From positions 7,636,001 to 7,700,000 of the forward strand of contig NC_090723.1 in NCBI RefSeq assembly GCF_040954835.1: 64,000 nt of DNA, given 5' to 3'. The DNA comes from Lepisosteus oculatus (Eukaryota > Chordata > Actinopteri > Semionotiformes > Lepisosteidae). Each line of letters opens with the position of its first letter. Positions within the stretch are counted from its first letter, which is position 1. Below, piece by piece: positions 26,509 through 64,000 of the stretch. The notes beneath the pieces were generated by a model that was not told the origin of the DNA, did not search any database, and worked only from the letters and a program-made list of their open reading frames with translations. A program made the position numbers and the translations under genes.

Positions 26509-29139
26509 ATGACATTGAATGGTCTATTTACCCGCGTGTGTATATTACTCTTGGCGGTTTCCACCTTGACGCTTGGATGCATTAACCACCGGATCCAGGT
26601 TAACTACATTGAAAAGAGCCTCTCTCTATTAGAGACCATGGTAAGTACTACATAAGAAAGAAAGGAATTGTATGTTTGCTGATGACTGATTAGACAGCTT
26701 GATCGAAAGGCGCGCTGACACGAGACAGCCGTGCGATAAAATCATTATCATGGATCTGTATACCGAGACTTTGAAAACCACATCATTGCAAAAGGAGACG
26801 CACGGTTTTCCCAATCACCCTGATTCAAAATAGTTAATATTTTCTCTTTGTACCCGAAATCCTACGGCTTTGACGAAGGACCGATTGAAAGATAACTAGA
26901 TATCCTCAAAGAAAATCCTCTATTGGAAAAAATGAGTCAAAAGGGTTTTTTGCTGTGCATCTTATTGTGAAAGGATAGTGTATCTAGAGAATGTGTATAA
27001 TTGTTTCTGGTTCTATGTTTGTGTCTTTTATAGGGAAGTAAAGTTCCGGAGCAGTGCTTAGAAGAATCGGCTGAGATGCACATGAACCCAAATCGTGTTA
27101 TCTCTAAAAGATGGAAGGTAAATGAGCTGTATTTTTTTACCGAAAGCCGTCGCGCCTGGCCCATGGCTCAGATCAAGTGTAGTTTCTGTATTTTCAGGTA
27201 CTAACAAATCAGATGTTGGGGTTATTAACATACTTCACGTCGCCTGTGCGGTGTGATGGACTGGAGTTCAGCCTTGCGCCACTTGCTTGTTGGGAAAAGG
27301 TCCAGCTCCTTAAAGATGACTTGATCTTTAACTTTATACAAATCAAATGAAAACCAAGCAATTCGAGACTCGGCACCACGGAGTTGAGATGATCGGTGAC
27401 CTTGATGGTGCTGTAACCCGTGTCTACAATCGGGGCCTTGTAATGGTTTAACGCGTGTTAAAACATTTACGATTATGTCTTTCAATCGATCCCACCAGAA
27501 AGGGGAGACTGCGCAGAACGTGAAAGACGTGTTCGAGCTGGCCAGCGAGCTGTTCAAGGTATCGCCGGGCTCGGTATCGTGGGACACAGGGAAACTGAAG
27601 GAATTCCAGGAGCTCTTGCACACCCAGGCAGCTGAGTTCGCTAAATGCGTAAGTTAATAAATAACAATAATAATTCCATACACTACATCTATATTTGTCT
27701 ATATCGCTTTCTGGACGCTCCACTCAAAGCGCTTTACAGGTAATGGGGATCCCCCCCGCCACCAGTGTGCACCACCTGGATGATGCACCAGTGCACTCCC
27801 CACACACCAGCTCTCAGTGGGGAGGAGAATAGAGTGATGAAGCCAGTTCAGAGATGGGGGTTATTAGGTGGCCATGATTGGTAAAGGCCAGTGAAAAACT
27901 TGGCCAGGACGCCGAGTTTGCGCCCCTACTCTTTTCGAGAAACACCCCGGGATTTCTAATGACCACAGAGAGTCAGGACCTTGTTCGCAGACACTATCAG
28001 AGAGACAGACACACAGAGCTACAGCCACAGACACTGTCAAGACAGATAGCCGGCGCCATGTTCTTAGAATTTACTTTCCAACAAACGTGTCGAGATGAAA
28101 AGCATTGCTCAAATGTAAGCTGACAAAGCGATTGATTTCCTTTCTATGCTAAACTATACAGGCTGTGAATATTTATGGCCAGACTAAGCCCATCATTAGC
28201 AGACTGTTATACTTGGAAATGTTTTCTGCAGGCGTGCGTGAAATTAGAATCAAATTAGAAATCGGGGCACCGCTATGATCGGCAATTCTGAGGAGCACTG
28301 TCTACTGTATGTTTGACTCCCCCTTTGATGTTTCACTGCGCGCCATCTGCGATGTTTCATCCGATTCTTTATTTTTAAAACATCTCGTTTTTTTTCAGGC
28401 CCCCAAACTCAAGATGAACAACGCAGCCTGGCGAACAAAAACCAGGGTGTACTTCGAGAAGCTGAAGAAGGCCGTGGGAAGTGAGGTGAGACAGTACATT
28501 TCCACCCCGGCCGTTTTTGTGTAAGGAGTAGGGGTGGCATTCCCTATTGTAACGCAACGGGGGCTCAGGCGGGCGCCCTTGCCGCATTAGGTCGGCCCCC
28601 CACCGTCGGGGGCTCGAACCCGGGACTCCCGCGTCGCTCTGCAGGGACCCAGCCCGGTGAGCCAAAAAGAGATCTGTCTACAGCCCAGTAGCTGTAGTCC
28701 TGCTATCACAGGGAAGGGCGGTGACGTCACCTGCTCTGGTACGCCGGCTCTTACACAGTGCCTGTCGGCTGTAAGCGTTACACTATGTTAATTATACATT
28801 TGGTTACATTGTCAGTGCCCCTCTTACTTTTTTTTGTGCTCTGGAATACACTGTCCGAAAAAGGGGAATTTTTTTTTTGCAATGCAAGCGAGAGGCGAAG
28901 TACAAAAAAAATCCAGAGATACTGTATTTTTTCGGGGGTATTTTGCAGCGCTTTCAGCGCATCGCGAGATCTCCTTATGTAAAACTGCTGTCCGGGTATG
29001 ACTGTGAGCGCGCTGCCGACGGTAACTCGGCGCTCTGCCCTGTGGTCGTTTTCAGAACAACCTGTGTGCGTGGGAGGCGGCGAGGAGTCAGATGAGAACG
29101 ATTCTCCTGCGGGTTTTTCATCTGAAGCTCCGCCGCTGA
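26509..29139 (+). CDS. Type I interferon, IFN gene 1 (four-cysteine / group II pattern), 178 aa
   Basis: Exons: 26509-26640, 27034-27117, 27499-27648, 28399-28485, 29056-29139. All introns are phase 0 with GT/AG ends, matching the five-exon structure of fish type I IFN genes. Codons are 44+28+50+29+27 plus stop. Residues 1-23 form a signal peptide (MTLNGLFTRVCILLLAVSTL...); cleavage before C24 is likely. Cysteines lie at the mature N-terminus (C24), in exon 2 (PEQC), at the end of exon 3 (AKC) and in NNLCAWEAAR of exon 5: the four-cysteine pattern that pairs C1-C3 and C2-C4. Exon 3 has the family SVSWD signature. The product should be a secreted antiviral cytokine acting through the CRFB receptor and JAK-STAT. 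It is the most divergent member of the cluster, especially in exon 2. Introns 3 and 4 carry repeats. A subgroup letter cannot be assigned by eye. Confidence 0.9.
27655..27990 (+). repeat. R1 repeat in intron 3 of IFN gene 1
   Basis: Begins in an ATA-rich run just after the exon 3 donor, then CACTCCACTCAAAGCGCTTT, CACCACCTGGATGATGCACC and TCAGTGGGGAGGAGAATAGA. It is in sense orientation and does not touch splice sites. Confidence 0.8.
28535..28795 (-). repeat. tRNA-derived SINE in intron 4 of IFN gene 1
   Basis: On the minus strand it has an A-box-like GGCTCACCGGGCTGG and an exact B-box GGTTCGAGCCC, with no complete tRNA fold. Its two ends carry the inverted heptamer GTAACGC/GCGTTAC. It differs from the R2 SINE and is probably a second tRNA-derived SINE family. 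Confidence 0.6.
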
Positions 29140-29259
29140 AGGCGAGACTGCACTTCCCGAATAAGCTATCGCCCCCGAGAAGCCGGTCAACTATAGCTAA
29201 TTAAGCTATTTATATACTGTATACCTCTATAAACACCGTTTGTACCGTTAGACGAAGAA

Positions 29260-29460
29260 GAAAGGTGTTATTTATTTCTTTATTTATTTTAAATCTATTT
29301 ATATATTTATGTTTACTGTTTAAGAAAAAAAATATATACAAACCTTTTTTTAAAAAAAAAACTTCCTAGATTTTTGGGATTTTACAAATACTGGAGGAAT
29401 GCATGTTTTGTAACCAGAAAGTATGGAAGACGATGCTCTGTGAAACTCAATAAATGATGT
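29260..29460 (+). terminator. AU-rich 3' UTR and poly(A) signal of IFN gene 1
   Basis: Several ATTTA pentamers at 29267-29315 are followed by AATAAA at 29449-29454. AU-rich elements of this type destabilise cytokine mRNAs. Confidence 0.65.
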
Positions 29461-29834
29461 TTGAAAACGAAAAAGAAATGTTTTTTTTTTCTGAGAGGCA
29501 CCCCTTCTGTGTTAACAGGGTTTTCTTTGCATAAGTACCAAATGGCACAACAGTAACTTCTTGCTACATATTCTTCATTTTTTTCGGTCCTACGTACCCT
29601 TCCCCCCCAACATGATCCAGACTGAACATTTACCACACATTAACAGATATAATTAAAAGGTCTACACGGGTGATGCATTTATATTGAGTCCGCCAGTAAT
29701 TTCTCCAGTACATCGCTCCAAATATGAACAGCCATTTCTCCCTTAACAGGATAATGAGAGCACTAAAGTACAATAATATTATTGTAGTCATAAGTGTCAC
29801 TGTTGTAAATATATACATCATCCACTTTCCAACC

Positions 29835-30145
29835 GACTTACCTGGGGTCACAGGGGATGCTGGTGCCTAACCCAGCAAGCACAGGGTATAACCCGGGACA
29901 GGACCCCAGTCCATGACAGAGCACACAGGGAAAACACACTCACACCAGGGCCAGTTTCCCCAGAAACCCATGAACCTATCAGTGTGTCTTCAGACTGTGG
30001 GATGACATTGGAGCACCTGGAGGAAGTCTGTGTGAACACAAGAAGAGCATACAAGCTCCACACAGACAGCAGCCGAGCACTTGAACCCAGGTTCCAGTGC
30101 TCTGCAGCAGTAATGCTAACCAGTAGGCCACTGTACCACCCGAAG
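29835..30145 (+). repeat. Interspersed repeat R3
   Basis: Blocks include TGCCTAACCCAGCAAGCACA, GTGTCTTCAGACTGTGGGAT and CATACAAGCTCCACACAGAC. It lies in the spacer between IFN genes 1 and 2, followed at once by an R4 element. Confidence 0.65.
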
Positions 30146-30204
30146 AAGAGACAGATCTCCCATAACAGGTCCACAGGTGCACTGAAGTACAATCATTTTA
30201 CTAC

Positions 30205-30285
30205 CCAAAGAAGGCTCCACAGCCGAAACGTTGTGTTTCTTTTCGTCTTTCAGCATGGAATATTAACTTTAACTTGTTCCATAAT
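30205..30285 (+). repeat. Interspersed repeat R4
   Basis: GAAGGCTCCACAGCCGAAAC, a T-rich stretch, then CAGCATGGAATATTAAC and CTTGTTCC, as in the copies at 42690 and 56935. Confidence 0.6.
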
Positions 30286-31168: not shown

Positions 31169-32705
31169 ATGGAGCTCAGGAGCCTGTGGAAGTGCTGCTT
31201 CCTCCTTCTCTGCAGCCAGAATCTGTGCCGGGGCTGCAGGTGGATTCGGCACAGTTTCAGCGCCGTGAACACGGACGCGCTGTCGCTGCTCAGAGGGATG
31301 GTGAGTCTCTCCGGGGAGATGCCCTCCTGCAGCCTGCAAATCGTCACAATAATCTCAGGGCGAACAATTCAGCAGGAAAATGGTGTGGTGAACATCATTG
31401 AGGCGCTGCACTGAGTCCTGAACGAATTACACTTTTTCCTAAGAATGCTTTGGAATATTTGACACGGAACTATTTGAAACACTGATAAACGGCAAGCATG
31501 AGAGTAGATTTATTGAAAATGAGTTATGTGACTCTAAATTCCAATTCTATTGAATTTTGAGTCTCCTCCTTGTCCCGTAGTACTAAGTACGTGATCTTGT
31601 GAATAATGTCGTTAAGTCTAGGTTTACTTTAAAACCGTATTGACTCGTTCACATCAAGTGCATGTTGCCTGTTCCAGGGCGGGGAATTCGTGCACTCCAG
31701 TGTCATCGTGCCTTTCCCGAGCGAGTCTTACAGGCACGCCAAGGACTTTAAGGTAAGGAGAACATTGCTATATTCACATATAACAATATTCACATGCTTG
31801 AGAGAGAGTGGGTGGCATCTTTTCATCACCTACAAATCCTTCAGAACCATTAACGTTCTTAACTTCTGTTTATACATCAGTCTCTTGTCTATAAGCATGT
31901 TTAGTGTAAAAACGGTCAATTGCAATTCAAGTTAATGCTGAAAACGAAATTATTAAGAATGCACAACGGTTTTACCAGGCCGAGGAGAAGCTGGTGTTCA
32001 TCCTCGAAGCCATCAAGCACATCCGAGAGCTGTACAGCAGAAACGCGGGCTCCGGCAGCTGGGATGAGAAAATGCTGGAGTTCTTCCAGCTCGACCTGCA
32101 CCGCCAGACCTCCGAGCTGGAGAGATGCGTGAGTGTCTCGGTCTCACCGCCCCCCTCCGCCTTGGAGTCCAAACTCCCAGCAAGAGCAAATCAGCCAGGC
32201 TTGTGAGAGGTCCTGTTGGCATCCATCAATCCACACAATCATTGGTCTTGCTTGTCTTTAACAGACCCAGGAGATGAAACGCGCCTCCCGACACACTCAG
32301 GAGAGTAAGAAACTGAAGCGGTACTTCAAGGACGTGGAAAACCTCCTGAGAAGTAAGGTACGGCACCGCCTTCGCTCTGCAGCGAGAGCGCTCGGACTGG
32401 TTCCGACAGCTCACTGGCTGTGTGCAGCAGCCTTCGTCCAGACTGCCATACAGTCCGGGGCTGATGATCCCTCTAGTGCGGTTAGGAAAGACATTCGAGT
32501 TTGTTTAATAACCAAGACGGATTGAGACGCGTCCTGACCTGAGGGACACGCGTGTCCCGCCCTCAGCGCTCACACTGACGCCTGGAGCTTCTCCTTGCAG
32601 GACAGGACCGCGGCGTGGGAGGCGGTCAGAGCGCAAGTGTCCCGACACCTGCAGAGACTGGAGCTACTCGCCGGCTCCATCAGGGCAGTGAAGGAAGAGG
32701 AATAA
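31169..32705 (+). CDS. Type I interferon, IFN gene 2 (two-cysteine / group I), 184 aa
   Basis: Exons: 31169-31300, 31678-31752, 31979-32128, 32265-32357, 32601-32705; all phase-0 GT/AG introns; 44+25+50+31+34 codons plus stop. The signal peptide is residues 1-22 (MELRSLWKCCFLLLCSQNLC RG); the mature protein starts CRWIRHSF. Only two cysteines lie in the mature chain (mature N-terminus and ELERC at the end of exon 3), with AAWEAVRAQV in exon 5 instead of CAWE, which is the fish group I pattern. Family features include GSWDEKML in exon 3, RYFKDVENLL in exon 4, and the exon 2 PFPSESYRH block. It should be a secreted antiviral cytokine. The ATG at 31026 is out of frame with the IFN and opens an overlapping upstream ORF, so the start at 31169 is chosen for its signal peptide. 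The CDS is identical to IFN gene 3. Confidence 0.95.
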
Positions 32706-35062: not shown

Positions 35063-36652
35063 ATGGAGCTCAGGAGCCTGTGGAAGTGCTGCTTCCTCCT
35101 TCTCTGCAGCCAGAATCTGTGCCGGGGCTGCAGGTGGATTCGGCACAGTTTCAGCGCCGTGAACACGGACGCGCTGTCGCTGCTCAGAGGGATGGTGAGT
35201 GTCTCCGGGGAGATGCCCTCCTGCAGCCTGCAAATCGTCACAATAATCTCAGGGCGAACAATTCAGCAGGAAAATGGTGTGGTGAACATCATTGAGGCGC
35301 TGCACTGAGTCCTGAACGAATTACACTTTTTCCTAAGAATGCTTTGGAATATTTGACACGGAACTATTTGAAACACTGATAAACGGCAAGCATGAGAGTA
35401 GATTTATTGAAAATGAGTTATGTGACTCTAAATTCCAATTCTATTGAATTTTGAGTCTCCTCCTTGTCCCGCAGTACTAAGTACGTGATCTTGTGAATAA
35501 TGTCGTTAAGTCTAGGTTTACTTTAAAACCGTATTGACTCGTTCACATCAAGTGCATGTTGCCTGTTCCAGGGCGGGGAATTCGTGCACTCCAGTGTCAT
35601 CGTGCCTTTCCCGAGCGAGTCTTACAGGCACGCCAAGGACTTTAAGGTAAGGAGAACATTGTTCATTATTATTACCTTATGATTTATTTCTTTCATTGTA
35701 ATGAATAGAAGTCAATGCGCGATAAAATTCACATTCACATGCTTGAGAGAGAGAGTGGGTGGCACCTTTTCATCACCTACAAATCGTTCAGAACCATTAA
35801 CGTTCTTAACTTCTGTTTATACATCAGTCTCTTGTCTATAAGCATGTTTAGTGTAAAAACGGTCAATTGCAATTCAAGTTAATGCTGAAAACGAAATTAT
35901 TAAGAATGCACAACGGTTTTACCAGGCCGAGGAGAAGCTGGTGTTCATCCTCGAAGCCATCAAGCACATCCGAGAGCTGTACAGCAGAAACGCGGGCTCC
36001 GGCAGCTGGGATGAGAAAATGCTGGAGTTCTTCCAGCTCGACCTGCACCGCCAGACCTCCGAGCTGGAGAGATGCGTGAGTGTCTCGGTCTCACCGCCCC
36101 CCTCCGCCTTGGAGTCCAAACTCCCAGCAAGAGCAAATCAGCCAGGCTTGTGAGAGGTCCTGCTGGCATCCATCAATCCACACGATCATTGGTCTTGCTT
36201 GTCTTTAACAGACCCAGGAGATGAAACGCGCCTCCCGACACACTCAGGAGAGTAAGAAACTGAAGCGGTACTTCAAGGACGTGGAAAACCTCCTGAGAAG
36301 TAAGGTACGGCACCGCCTTCGCTCTGCAGCGAGAGCGCTCGGACTGGTTCCGACAGCTCACTGGCTGTGTGCAGCAGCCTTCGTCCAGACTGCCATCCAG
36401 TCCGGGGCTGATGATCCCTCTAGTGCGGTTAGGAAAGACATTCGAGTTTGTTTAATAACCAAGACGGATTGAGACGCGTCCTGACCTGAGGGACACGCGT
36501 GTCCCGCCCTCAGCGCTCACACTGACGCCTGGAGCTTCTCCTTGCAGGACAGGACCGCGGCGTGGGAGGCGGTCAGAGCGCAAGTGTCCCGACACCTGCA
36601 GAGACTGGAGCTACTCGCCGGCTCCATCAGGGCAGTGAAGGAAGAGGAATAA
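35063..36652 (+). CDS. Type I interferon, IFN gene 3 (two-cysteine / group I), 184 aa, identical CDS to gene 2
   Basis: Exons: 35063-35194, 35572-35646, 35926-36075, 36212-36304, 36548-36652; phase-0 GT/AG introns throughout. By base-by-base reading, the 555-nt coding sequence equals that of IFN gene 2, so the predicted proteins are identical: same signal peptide, CRWIRH mature start, two mature cysteines and AAWEAV motif. The flanking introns and UTRs carry a few differences, so the copies are not a simple collapsed duplicate. One difference is in the leader: the GGTAAG donor-like site after the ATG at 31026 in gene 2 is GGGAAG here. The duplication is either very recent or kept uniform by gene conversion; both would raise the dosage of one cytokine. 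Confidence 0.95.
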
Positions 36653-38964: not shown

Positions 38965-39150
38965 GAAACTGAAAGAGAAAGCAGAGAGCCGCGGGTGAAA
39001 ACTTCCCGTTTTCACTTTTCACACCTAGCGCAGAATCGCCTTTATTAGCGGGGCCGACGGGCGAGCAAGATGGATCACAACAGCAAACCGAGCATCTCTC
39101 CGAGAACAAACAGACCCTCTCCTCGCTCCTGCTGCGCTCTCTTATTTAAA
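38965..39150 (+). promoter_or_regulatory. Promoter of IFN gene 4: triple IRF repeat, second IRF site, TATA-like box
   Basis: GAAACTGAAAGAGAAAG at 38965-38981 is three GAAANN units in a row, an ideal ISRE. TTTTCACTTTTC at 39009-39020 is a second IRF-type site. TATTTAAA at 39143-39150 is the TATA-like box, leaving a short leader before the ATG at 39195. Confidence 0.7.
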
Positions 39151-39194
39151 CCGCTTCGAGCTCAGTTCCTCCGCACGACCGTACAATCCCGACG

Positions 39195-40473
39195 ATGGAG
39201 ACGACAAGCCTGTGGAAATGCCTGTTACTCCTGCTCTGCAGCCAGACCTGCGCTCTGGGATGCAGGTGGATTGTGAACGGATATAATATCGTGAGCAGAG
39301 ACGCCTTATCGCTCATCAATAAGATGGTAAGTTACACTTCAGAGCGCATGTCGGGGCTTGTCAATATTCTCTCAAAACGACGAAAATAGTAATGCAAGAC
39401 GCTCAGAAGTTAAAGCATTTCCTATTGTGCGAATAAATTAAGAATTCGCAATATAATTTCGCGAACGCATGCAGAAAAAGTTATCACTTGTCTTACTTCT
39501 TGACTATAAAAACATTTCGTGTAAATAAATGTGAACCAGTACAAAACAGATTTTTAAATAAGCTTGTGAGGATCTATCCAAGGGTGTGTAAAACATCGGA
39601 TTAATAAAATGGAATGTAATCATGCTTACCGTGTATTAACAAAGAAGCCGATTCCTGCATCAGCGAGCGTTGCAAAAAAAACAAAACAAAACACGAATGT
39701 TATTTGACTTGTGAAGATGAACTTGAGCCAAGATGCTTTGTTCTTTGCATGCAGGGCGGAGAGACGGTCGTGGACACGGGAGATGTCCGCTTCCCCCAGC
39801 CACTGTACAATCGCGTCAGAAAGATGAGCGTAAGTTCTCCCACACAGGATTATCATTAAATTATATATTTATACTGCTAATAATGCAGTATAAATGCAAC
39901 TCACCGTTTTTTATTCGCCGTAACAGACGGAACATAAGATTGCGTTCATGGATGAGACCCTCCATCACCTTCTACGCCTCTACGCCGAGAATCTGGACTC
40001 TGTGACCTGGGACAGGAGTCTTCTGAACAAATTGATAGCCGTCATCCACCGCCAGGCAAGCGAGCTTCGGAGCTGTGTGAGTACCAGGGGGCGTGGAAGC
40101 CCGATGTAATCGTTTTCAGTCGACAGCCGGACGAATGAATAATGACTGATCTCGTCATTTACAGGAAGCGTCCCAGAAAAGAGACGAGAACCTGCAGCTG
40201 TACTTTAAGAAGCTGAACGAAAACACTTTGAAAAAGGCGGTAAGGACACCCCTTTGCTCCCCAATTTATTGGATATATCGCGTTCTCTCCCCCCCCAACA
40301 CGACCTTCGAGAAGAAAAATAGAGCGATCATCATTCATAACAAGGGCTTTGTTTTTGTTTTTCAGAAATACAGCGCCAGTGCTTGGGAAATCGTCAGAAC
40401 ACATACTTTTCAACATTTGCAAGAACTGGAGAGGCTCGCCGGTGGGATGAGGAAAGAAATGCAGACTTTTTGA
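39195..40473 (+). CDS. Type I interferon, IFN gene 4 (two-cysteine / group I), 179 aa
   Basis: Exons: 39195-39326, 39755-39829, 39927-40076, 40165-40239, 40366-40473; phase-0 GT/AG introns; 44+25+50+25+35 codons plus stop. The signal peptide is METTSLWKCLLLLLCSQTCA plus LG, and the mature chain starts CRWIVNGYNI. Mature cysteines are only C23 and the LRSC at the end of exon 3. Exon 5 reads KYSASAWEIV then RTHTFQHLQELERLAGGM, and exon 3 has DSVTWDRSLLNK, both close to zebrafish group I IFNs. It should be a secreted antiviral cytokine. It is compact (1.3 kb of coding span). Downstream, ATTTATTTA elements (about 40565) and AATAAA at 40838-40843 mark the 3' UTR. It is the tandem paralog of gene 5 and more distant from genes 2 and 3. 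Confidence 0.95.
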
Positions 40474-43974: not shown

Positions 43975-44167
43975 GAAACCGAAAGTAAAGAGCTGAAAAG
44001 AAAATTCCGAGCGGCAGCTCTCCCGTTTTCACTTTTCACACCTAGCGCAGAATCGCCTTTATTAGCGGGGCCGACGGGCGAGCAAGATGGATCACAACAG
44101 CAAACCGAGCATCTCTCCGAGAACAAGCAGACCCTCTCCTCGCTCCTGCTGCGCTCTCTTATTTAAA
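43975..44167 (+). promoter_or_regulatory. Promoter of IFN gene 5: ISRE, IRF site, kB-like site, TATA-like box
   Basis: GAAACCGAAA at 43975-43984 is an ISRE core. GAAAATTCC near 44000 resembles an NF-kB half of a PRDII element. TTTTCACTTTTC at 44026-44037 and TATTTAAA at 44160-44167 are shared with gene 4. Confidence 0.65.
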
Positions 44168-44211
44168 CCGCTTCGAGCTCAGTTCCTCCGCACGACCGGA
44201 CAATCCCGACG

Positions 44212-51170: not shown

Positions 51171-51184
51171 GGCGCTGCCACATA

Positions 51185-51345: not shown

Positions 51346-51374
51346 CGATTATAGGTGCTAGAAAAGGAGAGCAC

Positions 51375-52150: not shown

Positions 52151-52189
52151 GGATTCTTGATAATTCACAGTTTCCTACTTTATATACCA

Positions 52190-52490: not shown

Positions 52491-53890
52491 TACTGTCCCC
52501 CTTTGTACATCATCGTGTATCAAATATCATTACACTTGTAAATATAAACCCTTTCGGTTATTTAAGAAAAGACTGCTTTCTATTAATCAAGGGTATTACT
52601 GAATTTGTAAATCCCATGATTATATTGGGGGTTCACAAACATTTTCTCTGCACCACGGGCATATGAGCTAAAAATAGAAAGTAATTTCTGCAAAAAAACC
52701 AAGTAAATGCAGCGACTAGTGTAGGTTTTTTTAAACCTCTGTAGTTATATATTATAAAGATGAATGCACTCTGTTCAACACTAACCTGAGGGCGATCTAC
52801 TGAAAACAGCTAAGATGCAGACCAAAATGTTCTTCTCGTTTGAACAGTCTTCACTAAATCAACATTTTCCTTATTGAAGAATTTCTCTATTTACAAGTAA
52901 ATTATAAATTATGGGCATAATGATTCAGCAAAGGATTTTTTAAATCCACCTTGTGTTTAGCTTCGACACGCGATATTTGATCCGGGACTGCAAGCGGTTC
53001 AGATTTAAATTTGGAATACTTAATAGAGCATTCGTGTTCTGAAATAAATGATACGCTATTCTGGTCATCGGAAGTATTGCTACCTGATTCAACGCCGATT
53101 TTGTAATGCATATTCTTAATTTTTCTTTCTCCGGGGCTGGCCTTTTTCCAAAGAATTGTTTAAAGTATAAGACAGGTGGATATTTGTCAATTGTTATCCA
53201 AAGGTTAACACAGTATAAGAGCATTCAATTAAGAATGACCTATTCTTGTCAAATTGGTTCAACAAGCGATTCAATTATCAATGATTTATTGGCTAGCCCT
53301 AACAAATTTGCATGATTTCTATAAGATAAAGAAAACATTCTTCCCAGTTTGCATTTCCCGCAACAGTAGATATTGAAACAGACACTTGATACTAGACAAA
53401 TAAAAAGATGCAATTTCTAAAAACCTGCCAGGTGTCCAAAACACGTCAATCTTCAATAACGACATTTTTCCTGGGTCCTAATTACCTTGGAATTACTTCA
53501 TTTTTCGAATTAATTAGTTGGAAAATAGTCTAATCGACTCAACAGCTGTAGAATAAATAATGCAACGTTTCCATAACGTTACCATATCCCATATTTATTT
53601 TTAAACTTTTGTGTTAATGAAACGTATTACCGTGTATTATTTCCATGAATCCGTTCGGGACTGTGCAATCTGCCTGTTTTGCACAGTACAGGAACTGAAA
53701 GCAGATACATGATTTACAATTAGAAAAAGGAACCACATTGCAGATCTCCTCTCTGTATTTTCTAACTTTCCAACCACACGTAGAGGTTTAATTTGTTTAA
53801 TTAAAAATCGTGTTTTTGTTAAGATATGAATGGATTTATTTTGAATTTATTCTAGACTGTGAATACATTTTCGATTTTAAAAGTCAGAGG
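52491..53890. other. AT-rich spacer upstream of IFN gene 6
   Basis: No gene or repeat family recognised. Small open frames here lack features of real genes. Confidence 0.4.
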
Positions 53891-53907
53891 GCAGTTCGAA
53901 ACTGCAT

Positions 53908-54005
53908 AAGTGAAAATGCAGAAAAACTGAAACACAAATTGGACATTTCCCAACCACATTCAAAAATAGTTTTGAAACGTATGGAAAGGTGTATGGCTTT
54001 ATAAA
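53908..54005 (+). promoter_or_regulatory. Promoter of IFN gene 6: IRF sites and TATA box
   Basis: AAGTGAAA at 53908-53915 and AACTGAAA at 53925-53932 are two AANNGAAA IRF cores on the same strand. GGGAAATGTCC (minus strand, about 53941-53951) resembles an NF-kB/PRDII site with one extra base. TATAAA is at 54000-54005, about 150 bp before the ATG. Confidence 0.6.
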
Positions 54006-54156
54006 CCTGGCTGGTGCACTCTAGAAAATCATAAATCGGAGTTTTACTACTTGGGCTACAGATTAATATTAATTCATCAAATCTGTATTTCAGATCAGAG
54101 TAGATTATATCCTTCTATATATTTATTTGCTTTGATTAATATCCGACTCTTGCTAA

Positions 54157-55476
54157 ATGGCTCTGCAGAACTTAGTGACGCTCAGCCTGGTTCTGTTTCT
54201 CTCTGTGGAAACGCAGTCTCTGAAATGCACTTGGTTGGGGCATCAACTGGGAAACATAAACGAGAAAAGTATCCAGGCTTTGAAGGAAATGGTAATACAT
54301 CTTAACTAAGAAGCTCCACTCCGAATATAATTTTTAGATTCTGTAGTTTATTTTTCCGTTGTACTTAATTTGTTGTTTTTATCCCCTTTAGGGTGGAGGT
54401 TTCCCGGTGGAGTGCGTTTCACAAATTATCACCACATTCCCAGTGGATGCTTTCAAGACAGTTGAAAATGTCAAGGTTAACATTTTTTTAACTTCAGTTC
54501 GATTAAATCAGTTTCGGCTTCAAGTGCTGGTGGATTATAAATACTCTACAAGCACATACGTATATTCCAGCGTGCATCAGTAATAATTGTTGTTGTTTTT
54601 TTTCTTCCAGAACGAAGATATTGTACTCACTGGACTAGAGACCATGAGGTGCGTGCACAGCATCTTCAACAAGACTGGGCACCCTGCGACCTGGGAAATC
54701 TCTGAACTGGAACGTTTCCAAGGCCTCCTCTACCGCCAGATTAGACAGCTGACACTTTGCGTATCTCTTACAGCGTTCGCTCCTCTGTCATTTTAAATGT
54801 TATGTGTATACATTATCACACTGAACTATCGCACGATAGAACATGTTCAGAATTTTGTGGGTTTAGTTAACTCCAGAATGAAATCTGCTCCGCATTTTTT
54901 TAAACTGTAATGGAAGGCTTCACTAAAAGCGAGAAACCGGTAGATGGAGAGAATGCAGTGTTGTTATGTGACCTGTGATTCTTGAACCTTAGCTGTCCAG
55001 ACACTGAACAGACTGTGACACGGAGATGTGAGACTTTTGCTCCTTGTCCTTTGCAGGCAGGGAGCGAAATGAAATTCTCAGGAGAACCGAATCGCCTCGG
55101 CGTCAGCGTGGTTCTGAAGACAAGCTTCGCCAAGCTGGAGAAGGTCCTGAGAGATAAGGTACCCAATCTGCGAATCATCCGGAACAGGTTTTATTCTTAT
55201 GATGTGACTTGGTGTCGAGGTGTAGTTGCTTTGTAGTGCAACAAGCATTTCTCATCAATGTCAGTGACAGTGCGAGATACAGCTTCTCTCTTTCTGCCGG
55301 GCTCCAGCACTGCAGCACAGCTGAGCTGGAAACGGCCGTGATCACCCACGTGACTTTTTAAGACTCGTGTTCTCACCCCCCAGGACTACAGCTACTGCGC
55401 GTGGGAGAGCGTGAGGAGGGACCTCCGTCGCGCACTGGAGCAATTTCAGGAATTCCTAGAGAGCAACAAGAAGTAA
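54157..55476 (+). CDS. Type I interferon, IFN gene 6 (four-cysteine / group II), 187 aa
   Basis: Exons: 54157-54291, 54392-54475, 54611-54760, 55057-55158, 55384-55476; phase-0 introns with GT/AG ends; 45+28+50+34+30 codons plus stop. The signal peptide is about residues 1-21 (MALQNLVTLSLVLFLSVETQ...), and the mature chain begins near LKCTWLGHQ. Cysteines: C24, exon 2 PVEC, end of exon 3 LTLC, and DYSYCAWESV in exon 5, the four-cysteine pattern shared with fish group II and mammalian IFN-alpha. An additional Cys lies in exon 3 (MRCVHS). N-glycosylation sequon NKT in exon 3. The exon 3 donor is a weak GTATCT. It should be a secreted antiviral cytokine. The 3' UTR has dense ATTTATTTTATTT and AATAAA at 55661-55666. 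Confidence 0.95.
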
Positions 55477-55668
55477 AGATGAAACTCCATGAAGAAGAAA
55501 GAATTCCTAACCCACGGCCCATGTCAAAGGAGCCTATGATTATTTATTTTATTTAAAAAAATATTTATTTTATTTATATATTATTTTTTATATTTATTTT
55601 CGATGTTTCTCGATGTATATTTGTGATGACTTTTTTTAAACAATTGCAATCTGAATTTTAAATAAAAA
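55477..55668 (+). terminator. AU-rich 3' UTR and poly(A) signal of IFN gene 6
   Basis: Overlapping ATTTA motifs at 55538-55605 and AATAAA at 55661-55666. The 3' UTR is short, under 200 nt. Confidence 0.65.
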
Positions 55669-56644
55669 AATGTTACATGCACTTTCTATGACATGGTATG
55701 TTCATTTTGTCAGTGCTCCATATAGCCTCGTAGTCCATGACGTGCTTTCGGGGCAGGTCGCTGCGTGCTTTGAATGTCTTTGTCAAAACTGTGTAACAGT
55801 TTCAATACAAACAGTATCTTAAAGCCTATTCTTTGAATTATGGGGGTAAAGACTAAAACTCTCCAGCTGTCATGAGTTTGCCCGGCTCCTGGCCTACAAC
55901 CTTCAGAAGGGCTGAGCGCTACCGCTGCGTGACGCGCCGGTCGTACCGGAGGTTGTTTGGGGCGTCTTTCCGTCGCACCTTCATGACGTACAACAGTCCG
56001 ATTCTCCTTTGCTCTGCACAATCTGAAGATGAAAATGAAAACTGCAACAATAACCACCCAACGAATCTGCATAAACCATGCTTCTTCCCTGTCTGTATTA
56101 TATTAACTGAAAATTAGTTTGGACAACTCTTGATATACACTGCCTTCACTAACAAAGTTAAAGAGATAACATTTAAAGTGGTTTTTAGGTTTTAGCCCAC
56201 TAAACCACCACTTTCTAGATTTACACAGGAACAAAATGATTCCTGTGTATTGTATACGGGTGGAACAGAAACATTTATTTACCTGCATGTATATAAAGTT
56301 GTTCTGGATAGGCTTGCAAAACTTTAAGCAAATGTGAGATTTAAGGAGTCTGATGTTTGGTTATACTTTGCAAATGATATAATTACAGTAATATGGCACA
56401 TGTTATAGTAAAAAACTGTATGTATAGTAAAATGCTAATATAGTAATGTGGAATAAGTTAGTAATCATATGATAATATGGAGAAAAAACATTTATAATGA
56501 ATTTGTTATACATAATGGGCAAATATCACAGGCACAAAACAGAATTGTCTAATGCTACTGCCTCCTTTAATGCTTATGAGGTGGAAATGGAGTACAACTC
56601 AAACTGCACTAAAAATTTGAAAATTAAACAAAAAACAACTGATG

Positions 56645-56803
56645 TACAGTAATAATAATAGTAATAATAATAATAATTACAACACTTATATAGCACTTTT
56701 CCGGACACTCCACTCAAAGCTCTTTACAGGTAATGGGACTCCCCTCCACCACCACCAATGTGCAGCATCCACCTGGATGATGTGACGGCAGCCATAGTGC
56801 ACG
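56645..56803 (+). repeat. AAT microsatellite joined to an R1 fragment
   Basis: AAT/AAG-type simple repeat followed by CACTTATATAGCACTTTTCC, CACTCCACTCAAAGCTCTTT and CACCTGGATGATGTGACGGC. Confidence 0.75.
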
Positions 56804-56934
56804 ATAAATACCTTATTATACAAACCTCCTCTCTCTATTGCCTTCATTAGTAGTTCGGGTGGGGAGCTGCGTCAGCAGGCGTAGACTGCAAGGGAACAAG
56901 TAAAGGTTTATTCCAGGCGGAAAAGAAATTCACT

Positions 56935-57018
56935 TGAAGACAGACTCCACAGCCGAAACATTGTGTTTCTTTTCTGCTCTGGTCAGCGTGGAATAAACCG
57001 TTACTTGTTCCTTGATTA
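56935..57018 (+). repeat. Interspersed repeat R4
   Basis: CTCCACAGCCGAAACATTGT, CAGCGTGGAATAAACCGTTA and CTTGTTCC. Confidence 0.65.
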
Positions 57019-57059
57019 AGATCTAACCGAGAGAAGCGAGTTCAGTCTGAAACTGAGAC

Positions 57060-57420
57060 CTGTGTCACGCCCTCTGCAGCCAGAGGGCGCTCCTTCTCTG
57101 ACCTGTCCCTAGTTTCCGGTCTGCTGTCCTTCCTGTCCCTCTCTTTCCCTTGGGCTATATATTTCCGGGTCTTGCACTCTGTCCTGGCTCAGCATTGATG
57201 TTTGGATGTCCTGAGACCCGCCTAGCACCAGGGCGCCCCACGTCCGCTCCCTGAGGGCATAGGTTTCTATACGGCATTCCTGAACTCTTTGCACTAATGA
57301 GCCCGGGCCTTTTTCCCGTCTCGCCGCTACGCATATGGGTCTTTTTCTGCTCTCCTGCTCCCCACGGTTAGTCCCTTTGGACGTCCGTGACAACCTGCTA
57401 CTGAGGGAGTAGATTATTCA
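57060..57420 (+). repeat. Unclassified interspersed-repeat-like block
   Basis: Begins GTGTCACGCCCTCTGCAG and ends near GGACGTCCGTGACAACC, with a C/T-rich body. The start TGTCACG and end CGTGACA are inverted heptamers. It resembles common fish repeats but no second copy is in the window. Confidence 0.35.
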
Positions 57421-57964
57421 ATATCTATTGCACTATTATGTAACCTTATTTTGTAACTTTAATTTTGGTATCCTCCCCGTGAGCTGGTAGAAAATACGTT
57501 TCATTGCCAACAACTACTGCTGCACGCTGTATTGTTGTGCGTTTGATCAATTGATTAGATAAGAGTGCAGGAGAAGAAGCAATAAACAGCAAGTCTGCAT
57601 CCGTGGCCCTGATGTACTTGATATCTTTTCATATGTTTTACTTTAAAACCAAATTAGTTTTACTGCGCTATACAATAACCCCAAATCACTTATCCTAATA
57701 TTATGGAGTCTTAGGATATTAAAATAAGGCTGCAATCTACAATAGCAAGAGTGAGCACAGTGCTTAAGGAGCAAACTAAAAAGCAATTGAAATTAATCTT
57801 ATCGGTCAAACGTTTTATTGTCAATTACTCGCTGACACTTATCCAGAGTGACTTACATTTGTACTAATTTTTACACATTTAGCAAACCGAACAGAGCAGA
57901 TTCAAGCTGCTAGCTCAGGGTTAGAATGGTAGTGTCCCAGAGTGATTCTGAACATGCAACCCTC

Positions 57965-58470
57965 CAGTTATGCGTTCAGAGCCTCTAACGGTACTTTATA
58001 ATGCAACTTATTTGCAACCTGGTGAAAATGCACATCTGTCGGTTTTGGCTTAAGCCGAGACACGGTTATGCAAGGAATCCGCAATGAAGAGATAGGTGGA
58101 CCCTGTGCAGACGCACAGTAGGTAGGTGGGTGTGTCCAGGCAGGCAAACTCCGGAACGTCAGGTGAGATCGTGGTCGAGCATGAGAAAGGCGGTTCAAAA
58201 TCCAGGAAGTACTAATAGAGGCGAACAGTCCGACTCGAAAGGCGAGGTCCAAAATAAGCGCTAGGTAGAGCTCTCTATGAGTAGACTCAATACCGAGCAG
58301 CAGGAAGCGGGTTTGAATGGCTTAAATACCGCTGCCCGCCGCACTGAAGGGCTTGTGGTGTTGAGTTAACGCGTGCGGCGGCGCTTGTGATTATCGCCTC
58401 GCTGCTCGCACTGGTGAGCTCTCCTGTGGGCTGGTCTGGGCAGGCTGGCGGTCGTGACAGGTCAAACCCT
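57965..58470. repeat. Unclassified interspersed-repeat-like block
   Basis: GC-richer than its surroundings, ending in GGCGGTCGTGACAG. Text such as CAAAATCCAGGAAGTACT and GGCTTAAATACCGCTGCC is typical of a repeat in fish genomes. There is no long coding frame. Confidence 0.3.
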
Positions 58471-59523
58471 TTATTGGTTTAATACATAAAAAGATTCATA
58501 GTAAGTTTCGTTCGAACTGATTCCACCTCTTAAACATGGAGCTTAAACCACTGCGTTTTGTAAGTGAAATCGAATCCCAAACTTGTGACTAGACAGAAAA
58601 TGCAAATATCTCAATGGAGCAACAGAGATCAACTGAGGTTTAAATGTATCTGATGAGCTGCAGGTGTGGGGGGTCACCGCCACTGGAAACCACTGCGCTA
58701 GAGGCACCGAACGTCACGGCTGACTGTGATACTCCATCCGGCTGAGTTAGGGGTTTACAGAGACCATACTTCAACCAAACCTGTTACCAAGCCCTTCCAT
58801 TTCAGACAGCTTACCGATGATGCAATGCACCAACCAAGTATATCCTAAAAACCCCTTTGTAAATCAGAAAACTGACTCATTCCTGAAAAGAAAGCGTTGT
58901 AACGTTACCCAATTCACTAGCAGCACCGACGCAGAGTTAGGAGCGGCGGAGGTGGGGATTCCGAGATGTCAGTTTAGAGGTTAGACTGCGGAAATAGAAA
59001 GCTAAAACCAATGTCTTAGACATTACACCTTTTAATCGGGGCTGTGGAGAAATGATAACATCACACAAAAGAAACGGAACCCATCTGTATTGCCCGTGTG
59101 TTTCTGGAGCACCGACAGATTTTAAACACAGTTTAACACAGTCTGTTATGCTTCGCTTCAAATTCTTTATAATTTAGCGTATATTATCAGAGTGGGCATA
59201 CAGTTCTGTGACACGTTGATGGTTTTGCTTTGCAGGCCACGTTCCGATCGATCTGTTTTTCAAAGGTCGTAACTGGATTGTCCACGCTGATCAACCAAGA
59301 TGGAAACGTTTGCTCTTCTGCGTGGACGGAATGAAATAATTAGTCCGCTGTCACGAATTGCGTGACCCGCTGAAAATCGGTCTTCACGGGCTCTATGTTC
59401 TGTGTTCACAACCCGATTCCGACATTTAACATCGCCGATGTTTGCTTTAAAATTAAATAACGCATATAGACTCACTTCGGTTTTGACTAATTTCCCTGCC
59501 CAGTTAGCAGACGGCGGAGACGA

Positions 59524-59625
59524 AAGTGATTCACTTTCACCGAAGGGAAAAGTGCACGTTGAGCGGCCAGGTGAGAAACGGGAACCGAGAGAAAGTGTTG
59601 AAAGTCAGCGCGGTTCTCTCAAATT
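59524..59625 (+). promoter_or_regulatory. Orphan IRF-motif cluster
   Basis: GAAAGTGATTCACTTTC (59522-59538) is a perfect 8+1+8 palindrome of two IRF half sites, followed by GAGAAACGGGAACCGAGAGA and GTTGAAAGTC up to about 59608. An ATG at 59632 opens 48 codons starting MKLIFVSQAWQPG, faintly like the IFN gene 7 signal peptide (FCLSQAW). No later IFN exons follow. Confidence 0.35.
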
Positions 59626-59984
59626 CAGAAAATGAAGCTGATCTTCGTGAGTCAGGCCTGGCAGCCAGGAGCTCCCGGCCATTTCTGCAGGAGGGAAAAA
59701 AGTAAAATGTGGACAAAAAAAATCATAAGACACAAGGCAGAGGTGCACTATGTAGTTCACGCAAAAGAGTGTGGATAACGGTTGAAATGTGAGACCCTGA
59801 AAATAAACACTTTTTGTCATTTATTTTGCAAAGCAGGCCTACTATTGCTGTCGCAAAAATATCTCTATATATCTATATTATATTGTCAAGATTTATAACA
59901 CCTAGCACGCCTGAGAGAAATTACATTTGTTGAACAAATCTGATCAATTGATATGAGGTTTGCCACACATAGCAGTACTCTTAA

Positions 59985-60180
59985 CAACAACAACAACAAC
60001 AACAATAATAATAATAATAATAAAATAAGAATAATAATAATAATAATAATAATAATATCATTATTATTATTATTATTAAGAATAGATGGTAGTACATTAG
60101 AATAGTAGTTATTGTATAAATTATAATAGTAGTTATTATTATTAATTAGTAGTGGATTAGAATAATAATATCGTTATTAG
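59985..60180 (+). repeat. Compound trinucleotide microsatellite
   Basis: AAC units pass into AAT/ATA units, then ATT units, then degenerate TAGTAGTTATTATT. About 120 bp are tightly repetitive. Confidence 0.9.
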
Positions 60181-61900
60181 TAGTAAGGGCTATGCTCGTT
60201 TTTCTAAGTGGTCAAGATTATTTGAGAGTATTTTTTCCTGTACCTAATGTTGACATGTGTCTCTATATTGTAGCTGATATAAATCTAGATTGATCGTGTC
60301 CGTGGCTTCTTGAAAGTAAGTACTTTATAGACATCACACAGCTGCCGTAGAACCGAAGCACGCCTTGGACAAAGGCAGAAACGTTTTGAAACCACTTTTA
60401 ATACCCAATTAGAAGAAAATCGATGTGCAAGACGCCACCTGAAAAATCCAAACCATGTATTTAGACATTTGCTTATTTGTCTATTTGAAATTTCCACTGC
60501 AACTCAACACCAACCACAACCGCAGCGCGTAGATCACTCCAGCAGCGAGATGATGTGATACGAAACTATTATGCCCGATCCTTAACTCTCTTCCCACTGT
60601 AGTCATCAAAATGTCGGCTTCAGAAACAGTTATTATGAGTAGATTAAGCGCGGTTTAATAATTAGTTCTGATTCATCTAAACGGGTTTAGCTTTATCGAC
60701 AGGAAAACCCACTTTTTTTGTAAAATTCGAAAATTCGCGAAAACGGTTGGTCTTCTTATTTGCGTAGCATTTAATACGACAAGTCGGAAAACGCGGGTGA
60801 TTCACGTTACGGTTTTGGACTAAATCAAGACCAAAACGCATCTAGAAAACAACTTGTCCCGGGACACTAAAACACAGATTGTCCGTCTTCTACATGACCG
60901 AGAGAGTGGTAAAAATAATGAAGAATTGGTCTGAGAGGAACCTACAGTACAAGATGTTTGCCAAAGTTCACAGTTACACAATTCAGTGGTGTCATTTTAA
61001 AATTATATATATATATTAATCAAGTAATATAAATATATTCAAAATTATTTTCATCACCTCACCCTTGTCGCTAAATAAAATACAATAGAGTGGTAAATGC
61101 TTTGAAACTGTTTCATTCATAATATTCATTCGTTTAAAACAAATGCATTAAAACGACCAAATTATTAAAAAAGGATGCAAGCTATAATACGCTAATCAAT
61201 TAAATCAATGTAGCATTATATCAAAATAAACTGAGGAGTTGATAAATCTATCCGAAGCCCTTCGAAGAGCAATTCAATCAATATAGCAAAACATTACATT
61301 ATTGATAAAAATCTCGTGGGCTGTACTTTTGCTATGGCTCATAAAGTACCTCAGAGTCTGATTGTTATCATTCAATTAAAATGTGACTACATATAAGATT
61401 CACTTCGATCGGATAGCTGGAGTGTTTTAGTTTCTTGCCCGCAGTGAATTGATATTTACTGTACAATGAAGGCCGATGAATCTCTTGAGATCGGGAAAGA
61501 TAATAAGATAAAATGAGATTTGAGTGTCCCCTGAGATATTTTTTTTGGACACCCAGCACTCCTGTACATTTCAACAGAATGCAAAGAAAAACATTGCACA
61601 TTATTCTTTTACCAAAAAAAAAAAGAAAAACATTGCAATGTAACTTCAGCATGCAAGTCTTCACTGCAGGCCGCGACCTTTGCCATTTTAACAGCGCAAG
61701 ACACAATTCCTGTTAAGTGTAAACGTTTTACGTTTCGAGTGTTGGTTGTGAACTTTTTGTGGTTATGTATTAAGCATGAATGGAGGTAAAGTGTATGCGA
61801 CAAATATCGGCATATCAATCATTTCCTACCGGACAGTGGAAAATCTCCAGGTCTCCGTAGGATGAGGTCACGGTACTTCTCAAGCTGGCAATGGAATGAG
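60181..61900. other. AT-rich spacer upstream of IFN gene 7
   Basis: No gene or repeat family recognised. A 112-codon minus-strand frame at 61368-61706 has no recognisable features. Confidence 0.4.
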
Positions 61901-61925
61901 TGACTTCGCTATAGACTATTTAATA
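61838..61925 (+). promoter_or_regulatory. Candidate promoter of IFN gene 7
   Basis: GGAAAATCTCC near 61840 resembles an NF-kB site, and CTATTTAATAG near 61915 is the best TATA-like box. No exact GAAANNGAAA element was found in the nearest 200 bp, unlike genes 1-6, so the assignment is weak. Confidence 0.35.
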
Positions 61926-61986
61926 GAACCGAACCATTATGCAGCACATTAATTTGCAGATTCTTAATCCATACGGTTGTCACACA

Positions 61987-64000
61987 ATGGCACTGAAAGG
62001 CTTTCTCTGGCTGTGTGTTGTCTTCTGCCTCTCGCAGGCTTGGGCGATGCCTACGAGGTGCGCATTCAGGGAGCATCTGATTGAAGTCAGCCTGAATCTT
62101 CTCAAGGACATGGTGAGTCCGAAATCGACTGTTTCTAACCTGGAGATGAATATGCTACTTCTTAAAATTCGATCGGTTGAACGCTTCTGTATTGTTCTCT
62201 TGTACATTAAAGGGAGGACATTTCCCGAGAGAGTGCATCAAAGACAACGTGTTGATTACTTTCCCAGCGGAGGTGCTTACCGATGGCTCGCAGGTAAAGG
62301 CTGATTCTCTTACCCAAAATACCCGCCGAGCACAGGGACGGCCGTTCACACGTGTGGAGCATCAGAGGCGATTGGCAGATGTCAGTCAGCTCACACGCTG
62401 GCAGCGCTTGGAACACGGGTCTGCATTTTTTTTCCGGCTAACGTTTTGTTTTCTTCGTTCGCCCAAACTCAGAATGAAAACATCCAGCCGGTGGTTTACG
62501 AAACACTGAGGAGCGTTAACACCCTTTTTCAAAGCGAAGGCAGGCCGTCAACATGGGACCAAAGAAAGCTGGAGGATTTCCAGAGTGTTGTTTTTCGTCA
62601 GGTTTCCGACTTCAAGAAATGTGTAAGTTGCACTGAGGCGTGCTTCGAGTTACATTAGCCCCTTTCCTACACACGTTCTGAGATGACTCGACAAGTATGC
62701 TTTAGAGCGGTGGGTACTGACAAACAAGGTAAACTTAGTCATAACGTTTTTTAAAAATACAGAAAACAGGCTTTGCAGGATTTTTTAAAGCGAACGCTAC
62801 TTTCAGCAGTAACTTGGAGAATTGTGTGTGGAAGTTGGATTCACAACAGCAGGACACGAGTGTGTACGGCTAAATGCACATGGTGACCGTGCACCGGATA
62901 TACAGGAAGCCATATTTTATTAATTACGTGCGTTTTACGCTCTGCTTACTTTGAAAGCAAATGTCCATTTGAGGAATCCTGAGGTAAGGTGCAAACCACT
63001 AACCAGTCTGCTTATGATATGCACTATCTTCCATAGTTTTTCTAATCTTTGACAGCGAACGGATAACGTCGAAGCATTCCCTTAAGTTCCAGAACATATG
63101 CTAGGGGCTTTAAAAAGACCATTTTTTTGAAACTGGGCCTTGTTCGGCAAAGTAATTTGTGCAAGGTGCGGCGCGCTTCCAGTTCATAAAGGTCTCAAAA
63201 ACGTCTTTTCAGGCTCTGAGGAATCGGACACGGAGAGAAACATCTTCTGCCAATAACTCGACGGTGCAGCTGAAGACCTACTTTAAGAAAATGGGACGTT
63301 TTCTGGAAGAAAAGGTACCGGCTTGCGTGAAATATCATCTTTTTTTATATAAAGCCAGTTAGCTTTTTTTAAAAGCGTGATTGCTTTTTACTAAATTCCC
63401 TTTGCGGACTTTTTTCGGCAGTCACGCGTGATTCGGGATGAGAGATCCGATCTGCTTCGTGTGTTAAATTGACAGGTCATCGCGTGTTTTCAATACATTT
63501 GGAGTTCAAATCTACCAAAGCAAACGACTGATGTTTGTAATCAGGCCATTGAATAGACGGGTCCTCTCATTTTAAAGGTTTATATCAGTCTGATTGCATT
63601 TAACCTGGTTAGAATTAGGAGCTCTAATGTTTTTGTAGGGTTGAGACTAATGTGGTCATTTCTGGTACGAATACAAACCCAACGGAGGATTTGTCTTTAA
63701 AACTTGAAAATATTACAAGGCGGGAAGTCCTTAATCTTGGTTGCTCTGATGTCACAGCTTACTGATTCGCGGGTACTTTGTTCAAGAGAACGCAGTAATC
63801 TTCATTAGTCTAAGGCTTTAGCATATACTCACTGACTACACCAAACTGGTGTAGATGAACATTATTCACTTCGAAAACACGCATCGAGCACCTTTGTTTT
63901 AGCCACGCAGTATTTACTGCGTTCTAAATTGAGATTTCTTTGTTCCAGAATTACAGTTCCTGCGCCTGGGAAATCACAAGACAAAAACTCATACAGGTCA
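61987..64000 (+). CDS. Type I interferon, IFN gene 7 (four-cysteine / group II), 3'-truncated by the window edge
   Basis: Exons: 61987-62112, 62213-62293, 62473-62622, 63213-63314, 63949 to beyond 64000; phase-0 GT/AG introns; 42+27+50+34 codons before the incomplete exon 5. Signal peptide MALKGFLWLCVVFCLSQAWA, mature start near MPTRC. Cysteines: C25, exon 2 PREC, exon 3 KKC, and exon 5 NYSSCAWEITRQKLIQ, the four-cysteine pattern with a motif very close to mammalian IFN-alpha CAWEVVRAEI. Exon 4 contains two N-glycosylation sequons (NRT and NST). An in-frame ATG at 61939 would add 16 residues ahead of the signal peptide; the ATG at 61987 is preferred. The gene is open as far as it can be read and looks intact. 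It is the closest relative of gene 6 here. Confidence 0.93.

Follow-up and report, generated by a model that had tools for sequence, protein, structure and literature searches.

Type I interferons are secreted after a virus has been sensed, and they act through two-chain receptors. Here we describe a stretch of 64,000 nt (the window, corresponding to C31:7636001-7700000 of the assembly searched) that carries part of an array of type I interferon genes of two kinds, with four cysteines (4C) or two (2C). Among the described loci, that of gar holds 4C and 2C genes in a single place, and the teleost ancestor hence had at least one of each (Secombes and Zou, 2017; PMC5332411). According to passages of the same paper, the 2C genes of holosteans and teleosts retain cysteines C1 and C3, and the 4C form is thought to be ancestral. 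Boudinot et al. (2016; PMC5127012) have proposed that a 4C gene was duplicated in tandem and that one copy gave rise to the 2C form, before the teleost duplication. In the passages we cite, Redmond et al. (2019; PMC6640115) reject group 2 as one clade owing to IFN-f and mention that gene conversion has been put forward among the forces that shape interferon evolution. What the first-pass annotation of this DNA chiefly claims, that a mixed 4C/2C locus in a non-teleost ray-finned fish documents the ancestral state, is thus already in print for gar in the cited passages (PMC5332411). What is added here is the full gene order, a split of the 4C genes into long and short forms of helix A, an inverted exon-5 relic and a set of mosaic gene pairs.

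We hold with considerable confidence that this is a type I interferon locus in its old position, in a non-teleost ray-finned fish, with 11 genes whose two classes have the kinships set out below and whose present state would reflect both duplication and gene conversion. From position 26509 to the end of the window, seven interferon genes were rebuilt on the forward strand, each with five exons and phase-0 introns, as the first-pass annotation had described them. The six distinct proteins that they encode all match Pfam family PF00143 (55.9-109 bits, gene 7 as cut by the window, against a curated cut-off of 26.8 bits). The window cuts the array: the assembly holds 11 interferon genes, of which genes 8-11 lie past the window on the same strand, and their four proteins also score above the cut-off. 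In all 11 genes, five exons and four phase-0 introns with GT donors and AG acceptors could be modelled (predicted splicing). The order along the array is one 4C gene, four 2C genes and six 4C genes, for a total of four 2C and seven 4C genes, so that 4C genes do flank the 2C genes as had been noted. The count of seven genes holds for the window, with the provisos that gene 7 is incomplete there, that four more genes follow, and that genes 2 and 3 do not differ in their protein (all 555 coding bases identical, introns 96.5-99.6%).

All seven 4C genes (1 and 6-11) have cysteines C1-C4, as group II is defined by its cysteines, and in the window genes 1, 6 and 7 carry these together with a CAWE motif. 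After the signal peptide, genes 2-5 have only C1 and C3, the cysteine pattern of group I. At the position of C4 there is alanine in genes 2 and 3 (AAWE), serine in gene 4 (SAWE) and aspartate in gene 5 (DAWE); the first-pass assignment of cysteines and motifs stands except for gene 5, which had been listed under SAWE/AAWE. Gene 6 has an extra, fifth cysteine in exon 3. The two classes also differ in the AB loop, counted on the 18-row tree alignment from the MGG at the end of helix A to the FP motif: it has 10 residues in genes 2-5, three to four fewer than in gene 6 (13) and gene 7 (14). In solved group I proteins it has 8 residues (3piv), 9 (7wkh) and about 11 (interferon 4), with interferon d (16) as the exception.

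A further character is independent of the cysteines and divides the 4C genes. The stretch that runs from C1 to the close of exon 1 is 17 residues long in genes 7, 9 and 11 and 18 in gene 10; gene 1 has 20, and genes 2-5, 6 and 8 have 21. Counts made from printed alignments give 17 for the solved proteins 3piw and interferon C, 20 for interferon omega, and 20-21 for four 2C proteins. The 4C genes therefore fall into two forms that differ by a shortening of helix A by 3-4 residues. The short form is common to two group II proteins and genes 7, 9, 10 and 11, and genes 7 and 11 may share it by conversion; the long, outgroup-like form unites the 2C genes with genes 1, 6 and 8. Judged by this character, the 2C genes need not derive from a group II-like gene, which refines the earlier picture of their origin.

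Four trees were built from the array proteins, without gene 3 (identical to gene 2), together with stretches of proteins of solved structure: one with 14 rows (window genes only), one with 18 rows, and two with 20 rows, with and without exon 1. In all four best trees, a branch separates the group I proteins, together with the array's 2C genes, from the other rows (support 95/92, 96/95, 80/87 and 90/77), at the starred level in two of the four; a tree with genes 2-5 outside group I, which would have spoken against the first-pass interpretation, did not appear. A single clade of all array genes was rejected in each of four tests (p-AU 0.00087, 0.0012, 9.7e-6 and 0.0016). Together, the shared 2C clade and the rejected array clade indicate that the two classes would already have been separate before this fish and the teleosts split. 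Genes 7, 9, 10 and 11 grouped with both fish group II rows in one of the two 20-row trees (69/97); in the other this grouping was absent from the best tree but was not rejected (p 0.37). A clade of the seven array 4C genes alone gave p 0.022 and 0.18 in the two 20-row trees. For the window 2C genes, a clade of their own apart from teleost 2C proteins was neither supported nor rejected (p-AU 0.30 and 0.40; 14 and 18 rows). Among solved structures, the best relatives of gene 4 are 8irq interferon d (88 bits), 7wkh (84.6) and 3piv (77.8), and those of gene 2 are 3piv (85) and 7wkh (78.2). Gene 7 is closest to 3piw (109.4 bits), as is gene 11 (118.3), followed in the latter case by 7wz5 interferon C (59.1).

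Three gene pairs are mosaics of very similar and strongly diverged parts. In genes 4 and 5, a tract at 39004-39333 that covers the proximal promoter, 5′ untranslated region, exon 1 and splice donor of gene 4 is matched by 44021-44350 of gene 5 (both on the forward strand; 98.8% over 330 nt). The start codon is preceded by 191 bases of the tract, in which IRF-type and TATA-like consensus matches occur, and beyond both ends of the tract the ungapped identity profile drops to background. A single 53-nt piece of intron 1 aligns (77%), and exons 2-5 are 85, 85, 75 and 71% identical. At synonymous sites the two genes differ by 0.035 within exon 1, as against 0.371 for exons 2-5 (Fisher p 2.6e-4, one of 55 pairs examined). 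In genes 7 and 11, the shared tract (61987-62123, forward strand, and window-equivalent 86529-86665) consists of exon 1 and 11 donor-side bases; it is 94.9% identical over 137 nt, the other exons are 68-75% identical, and neither intron 1 nor the 1500 bases ahead of the start codon gave a match at E 1e-3. In genes 6 and 8, the exons are 96-100% identical, introns 3 and 4 97.6 and 99.1%, and introns 1 and 2 84 and 88%; the first 100 upstream bases are 93% identical, and other flank pieces reach 44-80% (random pairs 39-58%).

A shared-segment shuffle test was applied to 45 pairs with 2000 shuffles, in which the best 8 of the 45 gave p 0.0005 to 0.0235, and the four lowest were repeated with 20000 shuffles, for which the count was 0 for genes 4/5 and 0 for genes 7/11. 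The three pairs (promoter plus exon 1 in 4/5, exon 1 in 7/11, the 3′ part in 6/8) are best read as traces of gene conversion, on the pattern of identity along the genes, and conversion limited to blocks that still pair would account for all of them. Among the titles and opening lines of abstracts listed for interferon gene conversion in fish and for holostean interferon genes, no such tracts are reported, which is not proof of absence.

The position of the locus was established on an assembly of 1,200,105,466 bases in 813 contigs, in which the array was traced by reading C31:7606001-7776000. The genes along the contig follow in the order ARHGAP27-like, PLEKHM1-like, interferons, CD79B-like and SCN4A. 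The PLEKHM1-like gene is in the window on the reverse strand (3719-9731, outer limits approximate), with a PH domain in 3719-4702 (PF00169, 51.6 bits), a RUN domain in 8186-8890 (PF02759, 83.4 bits) and a further weak RUN match below cut-off in 9309-9731; searched against the assembly, an exon of this gene matches fully once and has a relative at 37% on contig C12. In the left flank there is also an ARHGAP27-like SH3 exon (PF00018, 25.6 bits), and in the right flank a CD79B-like V-set exon (33.2 bits) and SCN4A, which is the best of 39 solved sodium-channel sequences (685.7 bits, against 624.1 for the next).

The claim of a single locus for both classes is borne out by three whole-genome searches, which placed every interferon match in the C31 array: 8 of 8 with PF00143 (23 first-look candidates), 13 of 13 with a 2C protein (15 first-look candidates scored) and 19 of 19 with a 4C protein (20 scored). 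At the sensitivity used, these searches found no second interferon locus in the assembly. The HoxA13_N domain (PF12284) gave four matches on four contigs (all four candidates scored), one being C31 and another C12, the contig with the PLEKHM1-like relative. Teleosts have more than four Hox group 13 loci, sturgeons have undergone extra genome duplications, and bichirs have much larger genomes. The Hox loci and the PLEKHM1-like matches fit a genome without the teleost duplication; when the 2C genes of ray-finned type and the 1.2 Gb of the assembly are added, the species is most likely a holostean, in agreement with the first-pass view of a non-teleost ray-finned fish. At C15:1498461-1640011 we also observed exons of class II cytokine receptors in a cluster (matches to PF09294), with similar GPP...-type exons in two of the three pieces that were read.

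Several points weigh against the kinships and the position proposed here. The fish rows from outside the array are only six solved proteins, whose sources we take, partly from their names, to be zebrafish (3piv and 3piw), grass carp (7wkh) and teleosts (8irq, 9xnl and 7wz5). Adding interferon C in the 20-row trees dropped support for the 2C clade below the starred level, and the backbone between the 4C lineages is left open by the trees. Gene 6 scores 56.6 bits with 3piw and then 47.8 and 45.7 with group I proteins, and gene 1 scores almost equally with 3piw (37.9 bits) and interferon 4 (35 bits), so that neither gene is clearly group II. Gene 1 is moreover a very long branch, compatible with either class. 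The names PLEKHM1, ARHGAP27 and CD79B are presumed from domain type and position, and the C15 receptor cluster was read over 11.5 kb, in three pieces. An alternative is that the 2C genes of this array lost C2 and C4 within it, independently of teleost group I. Such a loss would suit the placing of 4C genes on both sides of the 2C genes; two of the four best trees do put gene 1, weakly, with the 2C genes (37/45 with 14 rows, 72/64 with exons 2-5 and 20 rows), and in the other two that grouping is not rejected (p-AU 0.39 with 18 rows, 0.44 with 20 rows). However, the 2C proteins of both lineages form one clade in every best tree and the clade of array genes was rejected every time; the same C1/C3 pair is kept across the 2C rows of both lineages; and the AB loop measures 8-11 residues in most 2C rows (interferon d excepted) and 13-14 in genes 6 and 7. 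We regard independent loss as highly improbable. The proposal of the first-pass annotation, that the 2C form came about through losses within this array, is not demonstrated by these trees, given the open backbone and the ability of gene 1 to go with either class. The order of genes along a tandem array counts for little here, and for the direction of the loss of C2 and C4 we rely on 4C outgroups and on published work, so far as the cited passages go (PMC5332411, PMC5127012, PMC6640115). The earlier observation is thus confirmed and its interpretation, taken as a whole, partly supported.

The reading of the mosaic pairs as gene conversion also meets contrary evidence. In the 20000-shuffle test, genes 2/5 and 2/4, for which exon 1 is again concerned, gave counts of 67 and 33, which fail correction for 45 pairs. 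The gene 1 pairs 1/6, 1/8, 1/2 and 1/3 deviate in the opposite direction, with exon 1 the more diverged part (p at most 2.7e-4); these pairs are uninformative because of saturation, yet they show that the synonymous test lacks specificity. In genes 4 and 5, the top-scoring shared coding segment extends from exon 1 into exon 3; it is the non-coding profile, together with the identity of each exon, that places a sharp limit at exon 1. Strong purifying selection on exon 1 and the promoter could also leave such tracts, and it would fit tract edges that coincide with exon ends, the synonymous-site test for genes 7/11 (p 0.0068, which loses significance once 55 pairs are corrected for) and the aligned piece of intron 1 in genes 4 and 5, by which an old shared flank exists. 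We nevertheless find it unlikely: synonymous sites in exon 1 of genes 4 and 5 are nearly unchanged, exon 1 shows no general conservation (its identity less that of the other exons has a median of -1.8 points in 55 pairs), exon 1 of genes 9 and 10 is just 73-74% like that of gene 11, and in genes 6 and 8 it is two introns that are almost identical beside two that are not. That the near-identical pairs (2/3, 6/8 and the 5′ end of 4/5) are duplications made by assembling two haplotypes is very improbable. Genes 2 and 3 do differ in places no more than alleles might, but the spacer that follows the gene 2 unit occurs nowhere else in the window, so that the flanks differ; gene 7 stands between genes 6 and 8, whose flanks have diverged; and genes 4 and 5 differ strongly outside their one tract.

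The array may work as an exchange of parts, in which conversion, confined to blocks still common to paralogs, time and again re-copies 5′ modules (promoter and signal-peptide exon, or the signal-peptide exon alone) or 3′ halves and the rest diverges. In this view the locus retains, next to each other, the two groups I and II and another one or two 4C lineages of old origin. We put this forward tentatively, as a possibility that we are inclined to doubt. Exchange of this kind would re-share induction and secretion while the parts in contact with receptors drift apart, and genes 1 and 6/8 would be the further old 4C lineages, candidates for a proposed group 3. The array itself presumably expands through tandem duplication, and gene conversion would act only where segments have stayed similar. 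All 11 genes would encode secreted class II helical cytokines, presumably virus-induced; that they are expressed and have an antiviral function is our inference. In the passages we cite, zebrafish group I interferons act through CRFB1/CRFB5 and group II through CRFB2/CRFB5, the AB loop of human interferons is the main interface with IFNAR2, and grass carp IFNa binds CRFB2 too (PMC8980424). By analogy, loss of the C2-C4 disulfide and a shorter AB loop may accompany CRFB1/CRFB5-type receptor use in place of CRFB2/CRFB5.

The individual genes of the window, all on the forward strand, were modelled as follows. Gene 1 (4C) spans 26509-29139, with exons at 26509-26640, 27034-27117, 27499-27648, 28399-28485 and 29056-29139. 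The 2C genes are gene 2 (31169-32705; exons 31169-31300, 31678-31752, 31979-32128, 32265-32357 and 32601-32705), gene 3 (35063-36652; exons 35063-35194, 35572-35646, 35926-36075, 36212-36304 and 36548-36652), gene 4 (39195-40473; exons 39195-39326, 39755-39829, 39927-40076, 40165-40239 and 40366-40473) and gene 5 (44212-45784; exons 44212-44343, 44696-44770, 44878-45039, 45366-45440 and 45677-45784). Exon 3 of gene 5 (44878-45039) lacks the usual donor directly after C3 and seems four codons longer, with a GTAAAC donor. The remaining 4C genes are gene 6 (long helix A; 54157-55476; exons 54157-54291, 54392-54475, 54611-54760, 55057-55158 and 55384-55476) and gene 7 (short helix A; 61987-64000; exons 61987-62112, 62213-62293, 62473-62622, 63213-63314 and 63949 onwards), whose stop ends 59 bases beyond the window, at window-equivalent 64059. 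An IRF-type consensus match lies at most 350 bases upstream of six of the seven genes (gene 7 is without one) and a TATA-like match upstream of all seven; chance expectation was not computed for either. An 84-nt repeat, 92% identical, occurs at 27772-27855 in intron 3 of gene 1 and at 49041-49124 between genes 5 and 6, and is perhaps a dispersed element.

Past the window, again on the forward strand and in window-equivalent coordinates, lie four 4C genes: gene 8 (66924-68233), a near-copy of gene 6, gene 9 (75026-77024), gene 10 (80896-83100) and gene 11 (86529-87993). The spacing of genes 6 and 7 (about 7.8 kb) resembles that of genes 8 and 9 (about 8.1 kb); together with a few colinear matches here and there, this suggests that a block was duplicated long ago (53685-64000 and window-equivalent 66449-77024). 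Directly before the start codon of gene 11, a pyrimidine-rich stretch ends in TTTCAG (window-equivalent 86450-86529), as if an upstream non-coding exon preceded it.

The interferon exons were also sought with per-exon profiles, made from these same genes, with seven solved chains added for exon 5. With these profiles, each of the five exons was recovered exactly seven times within the window, and among the best 14 matches per exon there the next match outside the genes scored no more than 8.0 bits, exon 5 excepted. Further functional interferon genes in the gaps of the window were set aside, none having been detected by these profiles. The exception is a lone exon-5-like piece with CAWE and 19 residues on the reverse strand (21504-21448), inverted with respect to the array and situated between the PLEKHM1-like gene and gene 1; the statement that the genes share one strand thus holds for the complete genes and not for this piece. 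It scores 22.6 bits (E 1.1e-5), against 9.0 bits for the best match in a reversed-sequence control. No AG acceptor directly precedes it and a stop follows after 19 residues, and we therefore take it to be the relic of a further, inverted 4C gene. Neither the per-exon profiles nor a reading of the array gave other interferon exons on the reverse strand, and a working gene around this CAWE exon was set aside for lack of further exons and of a direct AG acceptor.

Compared with teleost interferons, genes 2-5 probably belong to the lineage of group I, represented by 3piv, 7wkh, 8irq interferon d and 9xnl interferon 4, with which they share the C1/C3 pair, best matches and tree position at 30-36% identity to the first three and 28-33% to 9xnl. 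Genes 7, 9, 10 and 11 resemble group II (3piw, zebrafish IFN2, and 7wz5, interferon C), which has four cysteines and the 17-residue short form found in genes 7, 9 and 11. Genes 1 and 6/8 differ from group II in that their four cysteines go with the long form (20-21 residues); they would be 4C genes whose helix A has kept the greater length seen in mammalian and 2C interferons. The mosaic pairs also call for caution with trees built from whole fish interferon genes, in which different histories can be combined: exon 1 and the remainder of a gene may differ in their nearest relatives.

In the cited passages, the gar locus resembles the one described here in that 4C and 2C genes occur together, in a genome without the teleost duplication, and the 2C genes have C1/C3; the mosaic pairs and the helix-A split are absent from those text passages, and loci of bony fish and shark lie near growth hormone and CD79, a position that is matched here by the CD79B-like flank (PMC5332411). 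The zebrafish ifnphi1-3 locus, between scn4a and arhgap27, likewise has five-exon genes, a mixture of 2C and 4C forms and the same SCN4A and ARHGAP27 flanks (PMC5127012). As described in the passages available from that paper, zebrafish has genes in the order 2C-4C-4C on one chromosome and a second 2C locus, whereas here four 2C and seven 4C genes stand in one locus. A complete one-locus array in a fish without the teleost duplication offers a direct point of comparison for the origin of the two receptor-specific classes.

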